From positions 62,001 to 126,000 of the forward strand of contig NZ_JASAOI010000004.1 in NCBI RefSeq assembly GCF_029953285.1: a stretch of 64,000 nt of DNA, written 5' to 3'. The position numbers and the translations under genes were made by a program. Below, piece after piece: positions 26,471-43,113 of this stretch. A model generated the notes under the pieces. It did not search any database. It saw only the letters and a list, made by a program, of their open reading frames with translations, and was not told the DNA's origin. The first letter of the stretch is position 1; each line of letters begins with the position of its first letter. This stretch comes from Yinghuangia seranimata (GTDB lineage: Bacteria; Actinomycetota; Actinomycetes; Streptomycetales; Streptomycetaceae).

Positions 26471-28231
26471 TCAGTGCGGCACCGTCGCCTGGCCGGCGAC
26501 GAGTTCGCGGTACGGCGTGCAGCGGGCGACGAGCGCGGGGTGGTTTCCCGCGTCGACGACCGTGCCGGCGCTCATCACGATCACGTGGTCGGCGTGCCGG
26601 ACCGTGGAGAGGCGGTGGGCGACCACGACCACCGCGCGGGTCGGTGCGAGGTCGTCCAGGATGGCGCGGAAGCGCTGCTCGTTGATCCCGTCCAGCTGGC
26701 TGGTGGGCTCGTCCAGCAGCACGATCTCGGCGTCCGACAGCAGCGCCCGGGCGAGGGCCATGCGCTGGCGTTGGCCGCCGGACAGGTCGGACTCGCGCCC
26801 GAGCAGGGTGTCGAGGCCTTGCGGCAGGCGGGCGACGTCGCCGGCGAGGCCCACGGCGTCCAGGGCGGCCTCGAGTTCCGCGTCCCGCGCGGGGTGGGCG
26901 CGGCCGAGCTGGAGGTTTTCGCGGGCGGTCGCCTCCAGCAGTGTGAACGCCTGGTCGACGTACGCGATGCGGGCGCGCAGCGCGTCCAGGGGCCAGTCGA
27001 GCACATCGTGCCCGAGGACGTCGACGGATCCGGACGCGGGCCGGAGGAACCGGTCGACGAGCGCCAGCGTGGTGGTCTTTCCGGCGCCGGACGGCCCGAC
27101 GATCGCGGTCAGGCCGGTGCGTTCGACCGTGAAGGAGACGTCACGGAGGGCGGCTTCGCTCGCGCCCGCGTGCGTGTACGAGACCGAGCGGAACACCACC
27201 GCGGGCGCGTCGGGAAGCGGGGACGGGGCCGGCCGGTCGGCGTCCTCGGGGTCGGCCTCGGGGTCCATGAGCAGCACTTCGTTGCAGCGGTCGCGGGCCG
27301 CGAACCCCGCCTGGAGGCGGCCGAAGCCGGTGGCCAGGGCGTTGACCGAAGGGACGGTCTGCAGCAGGTAGAGGAGGAACGCGGCGAAGGCGGCGGCTCG
27401 GAGGTCGCCGCTCGCCAACCGCGTGCCGCCGGTGAGGATCACGGCGATCATCGCGAGCTGGTTGCCGAGGGTCAGCACCGCGGGGATGAGCGCGCCCAGC
27501 CGGGTGCCTTCCAGGGAGACCGCGCGCAGGCGTTCCGCGTCGGCGGCCAGGGCGCGCGCGGCCACCGGTTCGGCGCGGTAGGCCTTGATCGTGGTGAGCG
27601 CGTCCAGGTTGGCGGTGAAGCGCTGGGCGAGTTGCCCGACCGCGGTCTGCTGTCCGGCCGTGCTGACCCGCATCCGACGCAGGACCAGCAGCACCAGGAT
27701 GGTGAGGACCGCCAGGGAGACGACCGTGACGAGCGTCAGCAGCCAGTCGATCCACACCATGATGCCCAGGGTCGCCGCGATCGTCAGTGCGGCGAGCGGC
27801 AGTTGCGTGGCCACGTCGACGACCTGCCGCAGCAGCATCGCGTCGGACGTGACGCGGGCGGCGAGGTCGCCGGTGCCTTCCGCGCGTACGACGGCCAGCG
27901 GCAGTCTCAGCGTGTGTTCCATGATGCGCGTCCGCAACCGGTAGGCCATGCGTTCGCCGATGCGCGCGAGTTGGAAGCCGGACAGGGCCTGCGCCAGGGC
28001 GCTGCCGACGGCCGCGGCGCACATCAGCGCGACGTCGGCGGCCAGGGGCCGGTGCGCGGAGAAGTCGGTGATGATCTCGCGGACGAGCAGCGGCAGCGCG
28101 AGCGTGGCACCGGTGGCCACGACGGCGAGCGCGAGCGCCCAGGTCAGCCGGCCGGACTCGGCGGTCAGTTCCCGGCGGAGCCGGACCGGGCCCGGGGCGC
28201 GGCGGGCGGTGGTGGGGTGCGGTTCGGCCAC
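26471..28231 (-). CDS. ABC exporter of the lanthipeptide locus
   Basis: This 586-residue type-I ABC half-exporter has a six-helix membrane domain (about 30-315) fused to a nucleotide-binding domain. The latter carries Walker A GPSGAGKTTTL, Q-loop YVDQAFTLLEAT, signature LSGGQRQRMALARAL and Walker B EIVLLDEPTSQLD, with the H-loop in VVVVAHRLSTVRHADHV. The GTG at 28231 has GAGAGG six bases upstream. It is the last gene of the minus-strand unit LanKC - precursor - exporter. SapB/AmfS-type loci usually have two such half-transporters; here there is one, so it probably acts as a homodimer. No C39 leader-peptidase domain is present, so it does not itself cut the leader. Confidence 0.88.
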   Translation of the reverse strand: MAEPHPTTARRAPGPVRLRRELTAESGRLTWALALAVVATGATLALPLLVREIITDFSAHRPLAADVALMCAAAVGSALAQALSGFQLARIGERMAYRLRTRIMEHTLRLPLAVVRAEGTGDLAARVTSDAMLLRQVVDVATQLPLAALTIAATLGIMVWIDWLLTLVTVVSLAVLTILVLLVLRRMRVSTAGQQTAVGQLAQRFTANLDALTTIKAYRAEPVAARALAADAERLRAVSLEGTRLGALIPAVLTLGNQLAMIAVILTGGTRLASGDLRAAAFAAFLLYLLQTVPSVNALATGFGRLQAGFAARDRCNEVLLMDPEADPEDADRPAPSPLPDAPAVVFRSVSYTHAGASEAALRDVSFTVERTGLTAIVGPSGAGKTTTLALVDRFLRPASGSVDVLGHDVLDWPLDALRARIAYVDQAFTLLEATARENLQLGRAHPARDAELEAALDAVGLAGDVARLPQGLDTLLGRESDLSGGQRQRMALARALLSDAEIVLLDEPTSQLDGINEQRFRAILDDLAPTRAVVVVAHRLSTVRHADHVIVMSAGTVVDAGNHPALVARCTPYRELVAGQATVPH

Positions 28232-28330
28232 GGGAAACCTCTCTGGTGCTGCGGCGGCGCGACGAGGGCGTACGCCGGGCGGGTGTGAGCGGTCGGGCGG
28301 CGGGAAGACGCGGGAATCGGGAACACGGAA

Positions 28331-28361
28331 CGGGCCGGGGCAGCGGTGCTGCCCCGGCCCG
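28331..28361 (-). terminator. Intra-operon hairpin between precursor and exporter
   Basis: A perfect 14-bp GC-rich stem (28331-28344 with 28348-28361) and a three-base loop lie 69 bases after the precursor stop and 99 bases before the exporter start. It is placed to end most transcripts after the precursor gene or to protect its 3' end, giving more peptide than exporter. Confidence 0.7.
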
Positions 28362-28429
28362 GAGCCCGACCGGACCTCACGGCCCGGTCGGTCCCGCGGT
28401 GCGGTCCGCCTGTGCAGGCGGCGGCACGG

Positions 28430-28567
28430 TCAGAGGCAGATCAGCGTGCTGAGCGTGCTGGTGCCGCAGTTGAGCACGCTCAGCGAGCTGGTGCTCGCGA
28501 GGGTGTCGTCGATCGGCGTCGCCTGGGTCTCGGGAACTTCCATCGTCTGGAGGTCGAGGATGGCCAT
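28430..28567 (-). CDS. lanA: Class III lanthipeptide precursor (SapB/AmfS-like)
   Basis: The 45-residue peptide starts at the ATG at 28567, with AAGGAGAA five bases upstream. The leader opens MAILDLQTMEVPE, containing the ILDLQ-type recognition helix seen in class III leaders. The core carries two copies of the S-x2-S-x3-C pattern: SSLSVLNC at residues 27-34 and STLSTLIC at 37-44, followed by Leu45. In this family each SxxSxxxC unit becomes a labionin or a lanthionine ring through Ser dehydration and Cys addition. It sits 100 bases after lanKC and before the exporter. The layout matches SapB/AmfS, morphogenetic surfactant peptides; whether this product aids aerial growth is inference. Confidence 0.92.
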   Translation of the reverse strand: MAILDLQTMEVPETQATPIDDTLASTSSLSVLNCGTSTLSTLICL

Positions 28568-28667
28568 GACAGTTCTCCTTCACTACGGGCGGTGAACCAC
28601 CCGGCCGGGCGGCCGGGAGTCTGGGGGCGCGGGACGCGCCGGTGGAAACGTGCGAGTGGTTCCGTGG

Positions 28668-31244
28668 TCAGCCGCGACGGGCGGACACGGGTGCCACCGC
28701 GGCGGGGCTGCCGGTCCACGGCAGGAACGGAGTTCCGGCCAATGCCGTGCCCAGCGCGAGCAGCACCCCGGCGGAGCCGGATGCGAGGTCTGCGGACAGG
28801 CGCAGCAACTGGTCGCCGGGGAAGGCGAGATGGCCGCGGTAGGTGATCTGGTGGAGGGTCAGGAGCCGGCGGTGCCGGTCGAGGACGGCGTCGGCGTCCC
28901 CGGTGAGGGCCAGGTAGCCGAGGAGCCCCGCGCGTCCGTTGAACAGTCCGGGCTGGATGATGAATTCGGGCTCGGCCGCGCGCCGGATGGGCGCGTTGTA
29001 GGAGGCCGCCGCGATGTCGGGCCGGTGCGCGGTGAGGGCGGCCAGCGCGAGGCCGATCCCGGCGCTGCCCGTCTCGATGTACGGGAGCACCCGCCGTCCG
29101 TCGACGACCTGCACGGTGCCGTCCGCGACGGTCGCGCACCGGTCGAGGTCCAGTTCCAGCAGGGCTTCCGCACGGTGGAGAAGGGCGTCGTCGCCGGTGT
29201 GTTCGTACAGGCGGACGAGTGCGAGGGCGGGCCCGGCGGCGCCGGCCAGCAGACCGGCTCTCCGGCCGCTGTCCGAACTACCGGCCTTCTCCAGGGGGTC
29301 GGCGGCGTTCTCGGCGAGGGCGCGGGCTTCGTCGAGGAACCGGTGCTCGCCGGTGGCGTCGGCGAAGTGCAGCAGGGCCAGGGCGATGCCGGCGTTTCCC
29401 GTGCCCAGCGACGGGCCCGCGTCGGTCTCTGACGCCTCGGCGACGCGCGCCAGGACCGTGAGCGCCGCGTCGCGTTCCCCGAGCAGGTCGAGCGCGTAGG
29501 CCACACCGTGACCGCCGAAGTACAGGCCGGGGCGGATGGGTTGGCGGTACGCCGCGCGGACGAGCCACCGCACGTGCGCGGGGTCGATCGCGGCCCCGGT
29601 CGCGTGCAAGGCGTACAGGACGCCGGCCGCGCCGTGGGCGAGTCCGAGCCCGCCGTGGGTGAACTGGGCGACGTCGCCCGGGAAGAGCCGGTCGGCGCGC
29701 TCGGGTGTGGCCATCGCCGCGATGCCTTCGGCCAACGAGTCGCGGATCCGCGGCCAGTCGGCGTCCGGCGCGGACAGCAGGGCGGCGGCCTCGGCGCGGC
29801 GCTGCCCGAGATCCGGGCGCGCCATGCGGCCGTCCGTCGGCACGGCGCCCAGCAGCGCGCGGATGTCGTCCGTGTACCCGGGCGGCACGGGGAAGCGCCG
29901 TTCCAGGGCGTCGGCGAGCTCCGCGGCCTTCCCCGGGTCGAGGGCCGGAAGCTGGGCGAGCGGGAAGAACAGCCACAGCCGCAGGGCCGCGAGGCCGTAC
30001 CGGTCGACCTGTCTCCCCGTGTATCCCGGGGGTGCGGTGAATCCGGCCGCGCCCAGCGCCGGCCGCAGGAAGTCCTCGACGGGGCTGGCGAGTTCGAAGT
30101 CGATGAAGCAGATGTCGCCGTCCGGGCGGACGATCAGATTGCGCGGGTGCAGGTCCCCGAAGACGACCCCGCGGGCGTGGATGGCGTCCAAGGTCCGCTC
30201 GACGCGCTCCACGATGCCGAGGGCCTCGCGGGTGTACTCGGCGACCGCGGACCCGTCGGCGTCCGGGTGGATCAGCGGGTAGCGCGAGGTGAGCCACTCG
30301 GTGAGCGCGCCCCCTTCGACGAACTCCTGCACCAGGAAACGATGTTCCCAGGCGTTCAGCAGGCCGTGCACGGCCGGGACGCCGGGCAGGCCCGCCAGGC
30401 GGGAGAGCATGTCGTACTCCTGCCGCAAGCGTGCGACGGCGTCGACACCCCGCTGGTCCAGGCCCGCGTGCGGGCGTGCCTCCTTCAGGACCACCTGGGG
30501 CCCGCCGTCGCGGCCGCGCGCCAGGTAGACCCCGCCCGCGTTCGAGAAGTGCAGGACCCGCTCGACCGTGTACGGCAGTCCCGAGTCGCTCTGCGTCGCG
30601 CGTTCGGCGACCGCGGGGGCGATGACCGCGGGGACCGGGGCCCAGGACGGGACGGAGAATCCCGCGCCGCGGACGTCCGGGACAAGGCGGCCGTCCGGCC
30701 CTTCGAGGGCGAGCACCCGGTCGCCGGCCTCGTTGCGGCAGTACCGCTCGGCGAAGCTCCCGTACCGCAGGTACAACGGGCCTTCACCCCAGCGCAGGTC
30801 GCTGAGGATGTACGGGCCGCGCCGCCCGGCGAGGCGGCGCCCGAGCACGTCGAGGCACTTCTCCAATTCCGCGTCGTCCACCGGATACAGCGTGCAGAAC
30901 TTGCCGCTGGATCCGCGGGGCGCGTACTTGGAATTCTGCACCTGGAGGATCGGAAGGCCGCGCAGGAATTTGAACGTCATGCGCTCGCGCAGGCAGTAGT
31001 CGAACACGTCGGCGAGCACCGCCTCGGCGTCCTCCGCGCACGACGAGACGTGGATCTTCCAGCCCTGCGAGGGCAGTTCGACGCCCTCGGGGCGGACCAC
31101 CGCCCATATCTCCAGGTCACCGCGCTCCCAGCCGGCCGGCAGCGGCGCGCCTACGGCGGCGAACTCCTCGGGCGCGCCCCAGCGCCGCGGGGAGTCGTAG
31201 AAGAGCGGATCGGCGTAGGCGTAGGCCTCATAGCGGTTGTCCAC
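28668..31244 (-). CDS. lanKC: Class III lanthipeptide synthetase LanKC
   Basis: This 858-residue three-domain enzyme dehydrates Ser in the precursor and cyclises the peptide. An N-terminal lyase-like domain spans about 1-215 and a Ser/Thr kinase-like domain about 225-480, with catalytic Lys 254 (VVLKEARPH), loop GDLHPRN at 363-369 and a DFE variant of DFG at 382-384. The C-terminal LanC-like cyclase occupies about 500-850 (GGLGLAHGAAGVLYAL, YFGGHGVAYAL, TGNAGIALAL, TGSAGIGLAL). Cys and His zinc ligands of LanC/class IV are not seen, which makes it class III. The GTG at 31244 has GAGGAGG seven bases upstream. It is first in the unit; no LuxR-type ramR/amfR regulator adjoins. Confidence 0.93.
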   Translation of the reverse strand: MDNRYEAYAYADPLFYDSPRRWGAPEEFAAVGAPLPAGWERGDLEIWAVVRPEGVELPSQGWKIHVSSCAEDAEAVLADVFDYCLRERMTFKFLRGLPILQVQNSKYAPRGSSGKFCTLYPVDDAELEKCLDVLGRRLAGRRGPYILSDLRWGEGPLYLRYGSFAERYCRNEAGDRVLALEGPDGRLVPDVRGAGFSVPSWAPVPAVIAPAVAERATQSDSGLPYTVERVLHFSNAGGVYLARGRDGGPQVVLKEARPHAGLDQRGVDAVARLRQEYDMLSRLAGLPGVPAVHGLLNAWEHRFLVQEFVEGGALTEWLTSRYPLIHPDADGSAVAEYTREALGIVERVERTLDAIHARGVVFGDLHPRNLIVRPDGDICFIDFELASPVEDFLRPALGAAGFTAPPGYTGRQVDRYGLAALRLWLFFPLAQLPALDPGKAAELADALERRFPVPPGYTDDIRALLGAVPTDGRMARPDLGQRRAEAAALLSAPDADWPRIRDSLAEGIAAMATPERADRLFPGDVAQFTHGGLGLAHGAAGVLYALHATGAAIDPAHVRWLVRAAYRQPIRPGLYFGGHGVAYALDLLGERDAALTVLARVAEASETDAGPSLGTGNAGIALALLHFADATGEHRFLDEARALAENAADPLEKAGSSDSGRRAGLLAGAAGPALALVRLYEHTGDDALLHRAEALLELDLDRCATVADGTVQVVDGRRVLPYIETGSAGIGLALAALTAHRPDIAAASYNAPIRRAAEPEFIIQPGLFNGRAGLLGYLALTGDADAVLDRHRRLLTLHQITYRGHLAFPGDQLLRLSADLASGSAGVLLALGTALAGTPFLPWTGSPAAVAPVSARRG

Positions 31245-36604: not shown

Positions 36605-39106
36605 TCAGGTGACGCGGATGCCGACGATGCAGGTGTCGTCGTCGGTGTCGGCCTTGCTGTGCGTCAGCAGGCGGTCGAGGCGCAGTCCGAGGGAGGCCGC
36701 GGGTCGGCGTGCGCTGTCGAGGAGTTGGGCCTGGGTTTCGGCCAGGGGGCGGTCGCGGCGTTCGATGAGGCCGTCGGTGTACATGAGCAGGACGTCGTCG
36801 GGTTCGAGCTGGACGTGGTGTTCTGCGTACTCGGTGTCGGAGAGCGCACCCAGCAGGATGCCGTCGGGCATCGGCAGGGCGGTGGCGGCGCCTTCGCGCA
36901 GGAGCAGCGGCGGGAGGTGGCCGGCGCGGGCCCAGCGCAGGCTCCGGGTGCACGGGTCGTACAGGCCGCACACGACGGTGGCGGTGACGTGTTTGGGCAG
37001 GGAGTGGGTGACGGCGTTGAGCCAACCGAGGAGCCGGCCGGGGCCGTGGCCGGTGACGGCCAGGCCGCGCAGGGCGTTGCGCAGGACGACCATGCTGGTG
37101 GCGGCGTCGATGCCGTGGCCGGCGACGTCACCGACGCACAGGAGGACCTGCTTGGTGGGCAGGACGACGGCGTCGTACCAGTCGCCGCCGACCGCGGCGT
37201 CGGACTCGGCGGGACGGTAGCGGACGGCGACGTCGAGGCCGGGGGTGTCCAGCGGCGTGGTCTCCGGCGGCATGATGGCGTGCTGGAGCTGCAGGGTGAG
37301 GCGGTTGCGTTCGGCGGCCTGCCGTTCGGTGTGCAGGAGTTGGTCGCGGGTCGCGGCGAGCGCGACTTCGGTCCAGTGCTGGGCGGAGACGTCCTGCTGG
37401 ACGCCGCGCACCCCCACGAGTCGGCCGTCCGGCCCGAGGAGCGGTTCCGCGACCACCCGCAGCTGCCGGGCCGTGCCGGTGTCGTCGGACCCGCGGAGCC
37501 GGAAGGCGGCGGAGGCCGGTCTGCGCTGGTGGACGACGGCGCGCACGAAGCGTGAGACGGCGACGGCGTCGTCCGGATGGACGTGCGTGGCGAGTTCCTC
37601 CAGCGCGGTGGGTGTGGCGGTGGGCGGAAGGCCGTGGAGCTGGAACATCTGCGTGTTCCAGGTGGTCCTGCCGGTGACGGTGTCGTCCTCGAAGACGCCG
37701 ATGCGGCCCAGGCGTTCGGCGTGGTGCAACAGGTCGGCGAGGCGGGCCGCCTCGTCCTTCAGACGCCACGTCACCAGGAGCGCGTCGCCCCAGCGGCTTA
37801 TGCCGACGTCCGCCAGGGTGGACGTCGGGCGGCGGTCGACCATGACGGCCAGCGGGACCTGGGGGTGCGTGAACGCCGTTCCGGTGGCGTGGACGCGTAC
37901 GGCGTGCCCGAACAGGCCTCCCGGTTCGGCGGCCAGCGGGTAGACCTCCAGGAGCGGCCGGCCCACGAGGTGCCGCCGGGCCCGACCGGCGGGATCGGTG
38001 AAGTGCGCGTTGGCGTACGAGATCCGGAAGTCGGCGAGCGTTCCGTCGGGTGCCCGGTGCGGCCGCAGGATCAGGGCCGGGTCGCGCAGGCCGTCCGCGA
38101 ACCGCATCAACCAGGCGCTGCCGGGGGCCGGGTCGCCGTCGTCCGCGTCGCCGCCGCCCGGGGACCGGTCGGCCGGGTCCCGCAGGGTGTAGGCGCAGAG
38201 TTCGGCCAGCGCCTCGAACTGTCCCCGGCTCCGGGGCGGTTGTCCGGGCAGAGCCACGGGCCAGCAGATCTCCAGGACGCCGTGGATGCGTCCGCCGAGC
38301 GCGGCCGGCAGCGCGGCGCGGGCGCCGGGGTGCTCGGCAGTGCCCGGTGCGGCCAGGTCCTGGTCGGCGGCTGAGGCGACCCATACGGCCGCGGACTCCT
38401 CCAGGGCGCGCCCCGCGACGGTGGGGACGCCGTGCGGGACATGACGCCAGCGGGCCGCCTCGTGCGGGGCGAGGCCGGCGTGACCGCGCAGTGCGAGCGA
38501 ACCGTCCTCGGCGACCGCCCACAGGAGCGCGGCGGTGGCGCCCAGCGGTGCGAGGGCGTGGTCGAGGAACGAGCGGGCCGCGGCGTCGGCGTCGTCGGCG
38601 GTGCCGGTCTCGGCGCGGCGCAGCCGCAGCGCTTCGGACGGCGTGTCCGCCCGGGGGGAGGGAACCCCGGCGTGGGCACGGGGTTCTTCGGGGTGCCTCG
38701 CGGTCGCGGGGTCCGTGGGCCGGGAGTGCGGCGCGGCGTCCGCGATGCGGTCGAGGGCGGCCTTGCCGATGATGTCGGCGGCCAGTTCGAGGGGCGGTAG
38801 GCCGACGCGGGCGGCGAGGTCGGCCAGTTGCCGGCGGGCGTCGACGGGGGCACAGCCCAGGCGTTCGACGAGGACGCCCGCGGCGGTGTCGAGTACGGCG
38901 CGGTCCTCGGCGGCGGCGAGGGCGGCGTGCAGTTCCCGCCCGAGGCGGTCGACGACGGCGGCGAGCCGCCGCACTGCTGTCCCGGGGTCGGATCCGGGGT
39001 CCGATTCCGGGTCGGATTCGGGGTCGGATTCGGCGTCCGTTTCCGGGTCGTCGGTGGGACCGGTGCCGTGGTGCGGCGGGTGAACGGGGGTGCGGGGGTC
39101 GGTCAC
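36605..39106 (-). CDS. Multi-sensor SpoIIE/PP2C phosphatase (ANTAR-GAF-PAS-PAS-PP2C)
   Basis: This 833-residue soluble signalling phosphatase has a Glu/Asp/Ser/Pro repeat tail at residues 20-43 and an ANTAR-like three-helix segment at about 60-115 (AVLDTAAGVLVERLGCAPVDARRQL). GAF-like (about 165-300) and two PAS-like domains (about 330-440 and 470-590) follow. The C-terminal SpoIIE-type PP2C domain has the metal-binding GGDWYD and VGDVAGHGIDAATSM, then YTDGLIERR. Such enzymes dephosphorylate anti-sigma-factor antagonists. The GTG at 39106 has AGGAG about 11 bases upstream. It is 74 bases downstream of the hybrid kinase on the same strand, probably one operon. ANTAR joined to PP2C would link RNA binding to phosphatase output; that is inference. 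Confidence 0.88.
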   Translation of the reverse strand: MTDPRTPVHPPHHGTGPTDDPETDAESDPESDPESDPGSDPGTAVRRLAAVVDRLGRELHAALAAAEDRAVLDTAAGVLVERLGCAPVDARRQLADLAARVGLPPLELAADIIGKAALDRIADAAPHSRPTDPATARHPEEPRAHAGVPSPRADTPSEALRLRRAETGTADDADAAARSFLDHALAPLGATAALLWAVAEDGSLALRGHAGLAPHEAARWRHVPHGVPTVAGRALEESAAVWVASAADQDLAAPGTAEHPGARAALPAALGGRIHGVLEICWPVALPGQPPRSRGQFEALAELCAYTLRDPADRSPGGGDADDGDPAPGSAWLMRFADGLRDPALILRPHRAPDGTLADFRISYANAHFTDPAGRARRHLVGRPLLEVYPLAAEPGGLFGHAVRVHATGTAFTHPQVPLAVMVDRRPTSTLADVGISRWGDALLVTWRLKDEAARLADLLHHAERLGRIGVFEDDTVTGRTTWNTQMFQLHGLPPTATPTALEELATHVHPDDAVAVSRFVRAVVHQRRPASAAFRLRGSDDTGTARQLRVVAEPLLGPDGRLVGVRGVQQDVSAQHWTEVALAATRDQLLHTERQAAERNRLTLQLQHAIMPPETTPLDTPGLDVAVRYRPAESDAAVGGDWYDAVVLPTKQVLLCVGDVAGHGIDAATSMVVLRNALRGLAVTGHGPGRLLGWLNAVTHSLPKHVTATVVCGLYDPCTRSLRWARAGHLPPLLLREGAATALPMPDGILLGALSDTEYAEHHVQLEPDDVLLMYTDGLIERRDRPLAETQAQLLDSARRPAASLGLRLDRLLTHSKADTDDDTCIVGIRVT
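38981..39052. repeat. 12-bp tandem repeat inside the SpoIIE gene
   Basis: Six imperfect 12-bp units of the type TTCGGGGTCGGA run end to end. They encode a four-residue repeat (ESDP/GSDP) in the acidic N-terminal tail. Such a repeat can change in number by slippage in three-base-safe steps. Confidence 0.75.
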
Positions 39107-39180
39107 GGTGCTGCCGGCTCCTGGAGTACGGCCCGTCGAGGCCTCGGGCGGTGGGGCGGTGGGGCGGTGTGCCCGGGCGG

Positions 39181-42345
<3,165 letters not shown>

Positions 42346-42440
42346 GGCTGCCACGTCCCGTCCGGATGCGGGCCCGCGCGCCGGCTGGCGCGAAGTGCTC
42401 GCCGGAGGTCGGCCCCGGGAGGCCCCCTCGAACGCCATCA

Positions 42441-42454
42441 TTGCCCAACGGCAA
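42441..42454. promoter_or_regulatory. Operator candidate 1 (TTGCC-N4-GGCAA)
   Basis: This perfect 5-bp-arm palindrome with a four-base centre lies 96 bases upstream of the chosen kinase start. It matches the second site 105 bases further upstream in arms and spacing. The adjacent MarR-family gene is the likely source of its binding protein. Confidence 0.55.
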
Positions 42455-42545
42455 CGGTGCGTGCGACCGAACCGTGAGACGGGCGCCGGATTCCGGGCGT
42501 ACGCCCGCCCCTGTGGTGACGGTCGGGCGCACCATACGCTTAACT

Positions 42546-42561
42546 GTTGCCCTATGGCAAC
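42546..42561. promoter_or_regulatory. Operator candidate 2 (GTTGCC-N4-GGCAAC)
   Basis: This palindrome has perfect 6-bp arms and a four-base centre, placed between the MarR stop codon (42583) and the kinase gene. It shares the TTGCC/GGCAA arms and spacing with the site at 42441-42454. Confidence 0.55.
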
Positions 42562-42582
42562 GATAAGGTCGGGGTGTGGTCC

Positions 42583-43113
42583 TCAGGCGAAGCGGCGGGA
42601 CGGCGCGTCCCGCACGCCCTCCCCGGTGTCGGAATCCGCGTGCGCCGGGTGGCCCGCGGCGCGCCGGAACGCCTCCATGCCCGCAACCAGCGCCGCACGG
42701 TCCGCGGCGGGCATCCTGCCCAGCGTGTCGACCAGGTCCTCGGCCCGCCGCGCCCGGATGGCGTCCATCAGCGACTCGCCGTCCGAGGTCAGCGCGACGA
42801 CCACCTTGCGGCGGTTGTGCGCGTCCAGGTCCCGGGTCACCAGACCCGCCGAGTCCAGCCGGTCGCACAGCCGGCTCGCCACCGAGGAGACCGTGCCCAT
42901 CTCCTGGGCGAGTCCGTGCAGCGAGATACCGCGGGCCCGATGGATGATCGTCAGAGCCCGCAGTTGGGTCGGGGAGACCGTCGTGCCGAACGCCTCCTGA
43001 GCCCGCCCCCACACCGTGATCAGCGACTCCAGCGTCCCGGCGAGCACCCCGGCCGCCTCCTCGGCGCCGACGCCGGGAGCACGACGGTTTCGCTGCGCTT
43101 GTCTTTCGTCCAT
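42583..43113 (-). CDS. MarR family transcriptional regulator
   Basis: This 176-residue winged-helix regulator of the MarR type has helices before and after the DNA-binding core [46 protein letters not shown]. The wing carries [16 protein letters not shown]. The ATG at 43113 has GAGAAG nearby. The gene is divergent from a SpoIIE-type phosphatase (start 43176, 62-base gap) and lies upstream of the hybrid kinase on the same strand, with two palindromes in between. It probably represses the kinase-phosphatase unit in response to a small ligand or oxidant. Confidence 0.88.

Follow-up and report, generated by a model that had tools for sequence, protein, structure and literature searches.

A three-gene class III lanthipeptide locus with a single ABC exporter in Yinghuangia seranimata

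Introduction

Filamentous soil bacteria raise aerial threads with small two-ring peptides of the SapB kind. The closest described systems are SapB (ramCSAB/ramR, Streptomyces coelicolor), AmfS (S. griseus) and durhapeptin (durKC-durA-durT with ORF3 and ORF4, S. durhamensis). SapB and AmfS loci carry two exporters and a cluster regulator (PMC4255298), and both peptides hold lanthionines (PMC13380574). Durhapeptin has the same motif pair and holds two labionins, and six dehydrations were inferred for it (PMC13380574). A durhapeptin variant induces aerial hyphae, with species-selective activity, and durhapeptin is inactive on its own producer (PMC13380574).

Comparison of the locus with described systems

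We analyzed a window of 64,000 nucleotides from Yinghuangia seranimata (contig NZ_JASAOI010000004.1, positions 62,001 to 126,000 of the forward strand). The window contains a real and intact trio of genes, with the following features, numbered from the first base of the window:

28668..31244, minus strand: LanKC, class III lanthionine synthetase (lyase-kinase-cyclase), 858 aa; PF25816, PF00069, PF05147 and NF038151
28568..28583, minus strand: LanA ribosome binding region (AAGGAGAA), with a conserved AAGGAG before the start codon
28430..28567, minus strand: LanA precursor, 45 aa; PF19402, NF033212 and NF038159; kept in 15 other loci
28300..28429, minus strand: three tandem GC-rich hairpins between LanA and LanT, identified by fold energy and compensatory changes
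26471..28231, minus strand: LanT, single type I ABC half-exporter, 586 aa; PF00664 and PF00005, no peptidase domain

A first-pass annotation had placed LanKC, a precursor and an ABC half-exporter here, all on the minus strand, and we obtained the same coordinates and strand. Its assignment of the locus to the class III lanthipeptides is borne out by the family models for both LanKC and LanA.

The same annotation described the locus as having the SapB/AmfS layout, which is correct in part. As in the SapB and AmfS loci, LanKC is followed by a small precursor and then by an exporter, the leader carries a DLQ motif, and two tandem SxxSxxxC units end with one residue after the last Cys. Curated models also place the precursor in the SapB/AmfS family. 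In contrast to those loci, which pair two adjacent ABC exporters with an adjacent RamR or AmfR, the locus here has a single exporter, which belongs to another lineage, and lacks a neighboring regulator; SapB-type LanKC is about 45% identical to the LanKC of the window. The annotation further held that each unit in SapB and AmfS forms a lanthionine or a labionin; this stands for lanthionines and not for labionins (PMC13380574). Durhapeptin shares the hydrophobic core, the two SxxSxxxC units, the C-terminal Cys-Leu and the DLQ leader. However, its core sequence differs from that of the window, and genes for a second ABC-domain protein and for a response regulator adjoin the dur locus (PMC13380574).

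LanKC and the proposed pathway

The GTG start codon of LanKC is preceded by GAGGAGGGTTCC. LanKC matched the RamC_N model PF25816 at 1.3e-75 and the class III LanKC model NF038151 with 1016 bits (cut-off 575), whereas its score against the class IV LanL model was 406 bits, below the cut-off of 650. Catalytic residues were mapped by aligning LanKC to solved LanKC structures, using the ThurKC numbering of PMC10604976, which lists K65, H67, K94, K108, K117, D152, R163, R191, K257, E279 and a DFE motif. The equivalent residues are kept in the lyase part (K63, H65, K92, K106, K115, D149, R160 and R192) and in the kinase part (K254, E276 and D382-F383-E384). The cyclase retains F768 and, with E724/F768/N769 at the zinc-ligand positions, has no zinc ligands; in the class III relatives to which it was compared, the outer two of these positions are variable and Phe or Tyr occupies the middle one. 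A three-domain lyase-kinase-cyclase whose cyclase lacks zinc ligands is what defines class III. Judged by these residues, LanKC looks catalytically competent, and its chemistry is expected to be ordinary for class III.

The precursor has a leader with ILDLQ and a core with SSLSVLNC and STLSTLIC. In the pathway that we propose, the ILDLQ leader would dock on LanKC, whose kinase would phosphorylate, and whose lyase would eliminate, Ser27/Ser30 and Ser37/Ser40. The zinc-free cyclase would join Cys34 and Cys44 to the eliminated serines, as labionins or lanthionines. A LanT homodimer would export the product, and the leader would be removed by proteases encoded elsewhere in the genome, for which five M1 matches and one S9 oligopeptidase match are candidates (protease roles: PMC10885120). 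The hairpins between lanA and lanT probably hold precursor mRNA in excess over exporter mRNA.

Predicted role of the peptide

From the sequence evidence, we consider it probable that the three genes form a self-contained cassette for producing and exporting a SapB/AmfS-family class III lanthipeptide, hydrophobic and with two rings, which is likely an aerial-growth surfactant. As the first-pass annotation did, we reasonably infer a two-ring surfactant-like peptide, and a role as aerial-growth surfactant is plausible. Activation of such a surface-active peptide would likely come from a regulator outside the locus. Four RamR-like regulators (38-45%), none of them linked to the locus, are present in the genome (9.8 Mb, 113 contigs). 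The genome also has seven chaplin-type matches and thus contains aerial-hypha coat machinery. No second class III LanKC was found in the genome; the other synthetase is a class IV LanL at L126:6473-10648 on contig C8 (1011 bits). The LanL frame continues into a long, repetitive Ala/Thr-rich C-terminal part.

Alternatively, the secreted lanthipeptide could have another role (antimicrobial, antiviral or signaling) rather than act as a developmental surfactant. The distribution of the cassette is in keeping with such a role. Two genomes of the same genus (G001 and G002) lack the cassette and have no comparable LanKC, which indicates that the peptide is not essential for the genus. One flank of the locus matches G002 at 86%, where the G002 contig ends, and the matches to the other flank lie on other contigs, a pattern compatible with insertion as well as with loss. 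Moreover, of the 16 related genomes with the cassette, five (G085, G093, G098, G099 and G100) contain at least one additional LanKC gene at 43-48%, which may mark a SapB-type locus; therefore, the cassette does not simply replace SapB in every host. The missing adjacent ramR and the failure of durhapeptin to act on its own producer (PMC13380574) point the same way. Against this, the precursor, whose core is strongly hydrophobic, falls within the SapB/AmfS family models, chaplins are present in the host, and durhapeptin, which shares the motif pair, acts as a morphogen in some species (PMC13380574). We regard a role other than in development as possible, though unlikely.

A bolder form of the surfactant reading, which we hold to be doubtful, is that the locus is a regulator-free morphogen cassette in which RamA/RamB have been swapped for a distant homodimeric exporter. 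Such a cassette would move as a unit from one chromosomal site to another, make species-specific peptides for aerial growth, set the ratio of precursor to exporter through its hairpins and depend on a regulator at the host site. As a natural minimal set of synthetase, precursor and one exporter, the locus allows one to ask whether the second exporter and cluster regulator of SapB-type loci are needed, and whether aerial-growth peptides have evolved as modules specific to each species. Being small, it is easy to express in a laboratory Streptomyces.

The one-exporter branch

Scanning genome contigs yielded 80 LanKC loci, apart from the window. Sixteen of these, from Kitasatospora, Streptomyces and Streptacidiphilus (L036-L047, L049, L052, L053 and L110), encode a LanKC 63-79% identical to that of the window and on the same branch. 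In the LanKC tree, the 17 loci including the window are monophyletic (SH-aLRT 100), and the nearest outgroups have RamA-type exporters and, where called, RamB-type exporters. LanA and the orthologous single exporter are present in 15 of the 16 relatives, and in the remaining one, L041, the contig stops where LanA begins. Counting the window, 16 of 17 branch loci thus consist of LanKC, LanA and one orthologous ABC exporter, with the 17th ending at a contig edge. A synteny search for this arrangement, which the first-pass annotation had proposed, is answered by the 15 other loci, and its remark that there is one exporter rather than two holds for all 15. These loci also have similar hairpins; they differ from the window by residue changes in the leader and in the ring interior.

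The annotation had likewise pointed to the missing ramR/amfR-type regulator. Gene calling over 10 kb on each side, together with BLAST searches with RamR and RamA, found neither RamR nor a second exporter beside the window locus. A RamR-like gene occurs in none of the 17 branch loci, a few of which are shortened by contig ends, compared to 30 of the 64 others (Fisher P = 0.00014, a value that ignores shared ancestry). In an all-versus-all comparison of flanks, sharing of genes other than LanKC and the exporter was confined to a few related loci (the pairs L047/L049 and L039/L041, and three loci with two genes in common). Since flank genes otherwise do not recur, the cassette proper comprises three genes.

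LanT consists of ABC_membrane and ABC_tran domains, and a C39 peptidase domain was not found. Its identity to RamA is about 28-30%, which places it in a different ABC lineage; on this measure LanT is neither RamA nor RamB. Orthologues of LanT that are 65-78% identical adjoin LanKC in the 15 other loci. A family-wide search found four orthologues outside the window (66-75%), of which three adjoin LanKC and the fourth is at the edge of a contig. Because LanT is not RamA or RamB and the arrangement is common to one supported branch, the single exporter and the missing regulator are an inherited lineage trait and not a truncation.

Canonical relatives have RamA, RamB and RamR, and the locus might accordingly be a degraded ramCSAB-ramR cluster that lost an exporter and its regulator, or one whose missing genes were overlooked. 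We judge this very improbable and already contradicted: the remaining exporter is from the wrong lineage, 15 other species have its orthologue in this position, purifying selection acts on LanA, and the genes adjoining the trio on either side match no ram gene.

We could not name a donor cluster for LanT because its homologues at 37-56% sit in mixed surroundings; the two surroundings that we checked showed polyketide-synthase and MMPL genes, and a halogenase-like gene nearby. A partner ABC protein encoded elsewhere may also take part in export. At L161:6937-8837 (G003, contig C86), a LanT-related exporter (49-56%) is split over two overlapping frames, and no LanKC was seen in the surrounding 15 kb; it is possibly a broken orphan. 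In a non-exhaustive literature search, with most subscription journals outside its scope, we found no published description of the one-exporter branch, and the core string SSLSVLNC did not occur in the literature text searched.

The LanA precursor

LanA is a 45-residue peptide (MAILDLQTMEVPETQATPIDDTLASTSSLSVLNCGTSTLSTLICL) with the ribosome binding site GAAGGAGAACTGTCATG. It matched PF19402 (RamS) at 7e-16 with 58.8 bits (cut-off 24.3) and NF033212 (SapB/AmfS) at an E value of 6e-16 with 58.3 bits (cut-off 25). Wherever the precursor is complete (16 loci), AAGGAG is kept before the start codon. In 15 other species, LanKC and the exporter flank a near-identical peptide, which is one residue longer in the Streptacidiphilus pair. 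With the window as reference, comparison to 12 relatives gave dN of 0.04-0.21 and dS of 0.21-0.63, indicating purifying selection. Across 13 sequences of equal length, S27, S28, S30, C34, S37, T38, S40, T41, C44 and L45 are invariant, and both ring triads (S27/S30/C34 and S37/S40/C44) are among these. The two SxxSxxxC units and DLQ leader that the first-pass annotation had recognized are invariant across the LanKC branch.

Taken together, the near-identical peptide at the same place in 15 other species and the purifying selection argue that the open reading frame at 28430-28567 is genuine and did not arise by chance. Chance short frames are frequent in very GC-rich DNA, yet there is next to no likelihood that this frame is spurious and the true precursor lies elsewhere, given the family-model match, the conserved ribosome binding site, the conservation in 15 other loci and the invariant ring residues.

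The core is strongly hydrophobic. Its single Leu after the last Cys had been called unusual, which is wrong because cores across the family normally end this way, with a single residue following the final Cys (...TTCN in the SapB type, ...CL or ...CH in others). The four dehydrations forecast for the core stand as a minimum: S28, T36, T38 and T41 might also be dehydrated, and six dehydrations were reported for durhapeptin. For core peptides that begin at residues 24-27, the masses predicted after four dehydrations are 2098.04, 2027.01, 1939.98 and 1838.93 Da. In Kitasatospora sp. MBT63, two precursor copies that are identical at the DNA level lie at L036:12701-13050, which suggests a recent duplication (or an assembly repeat).

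Hairpins and upstream signals

The 130 bases 3' of LanA fold at -88.8 kcal/mol (z = -5.7 against dinucleotide shuffles), and two of the three hairpins lie within a longer closing stem. In an automatic alignment of 12 loci, 14 of 26 consensus pairs showed double compensatory changes, most clearly in the third hairpin. On average, the LanA-LanT spacer is more structured than in other loci (z of -2.8 to -10.4 versus -0.5 to -5.8). The simplest reading is that the hairpins are probably a partial terminator that leaves less exporter mRNA than precursor mRNA. The block is thus a possible attenuator, or else an mRNA stabilizer.

We considered bldA control and rejected it: LanKC and LanT of the window are free of TTA, and there is no bldA/TTA signal in the branch because TTA codons occur in only two of 17 LanKC frames. 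In ten cassette loci, a TTCGGATAGTCGCAT-like motif lies upstream of LanKC (for example, at -103 in L036 and at -156 in L037), with a GCGCCGTTGC-like motif about 35 bases further upstream; the pair is a possible shared promoter or operator. The TTCGGATAGTCGCAT-like motif is absent in this form from the window, and we do not claim it there. Elsewhere in the window, an unusually large open frame of 2135 residues (36605-43012, minus strand) ends in a SpoIIE phosphatase domain and has ANTAR and GAF matches.
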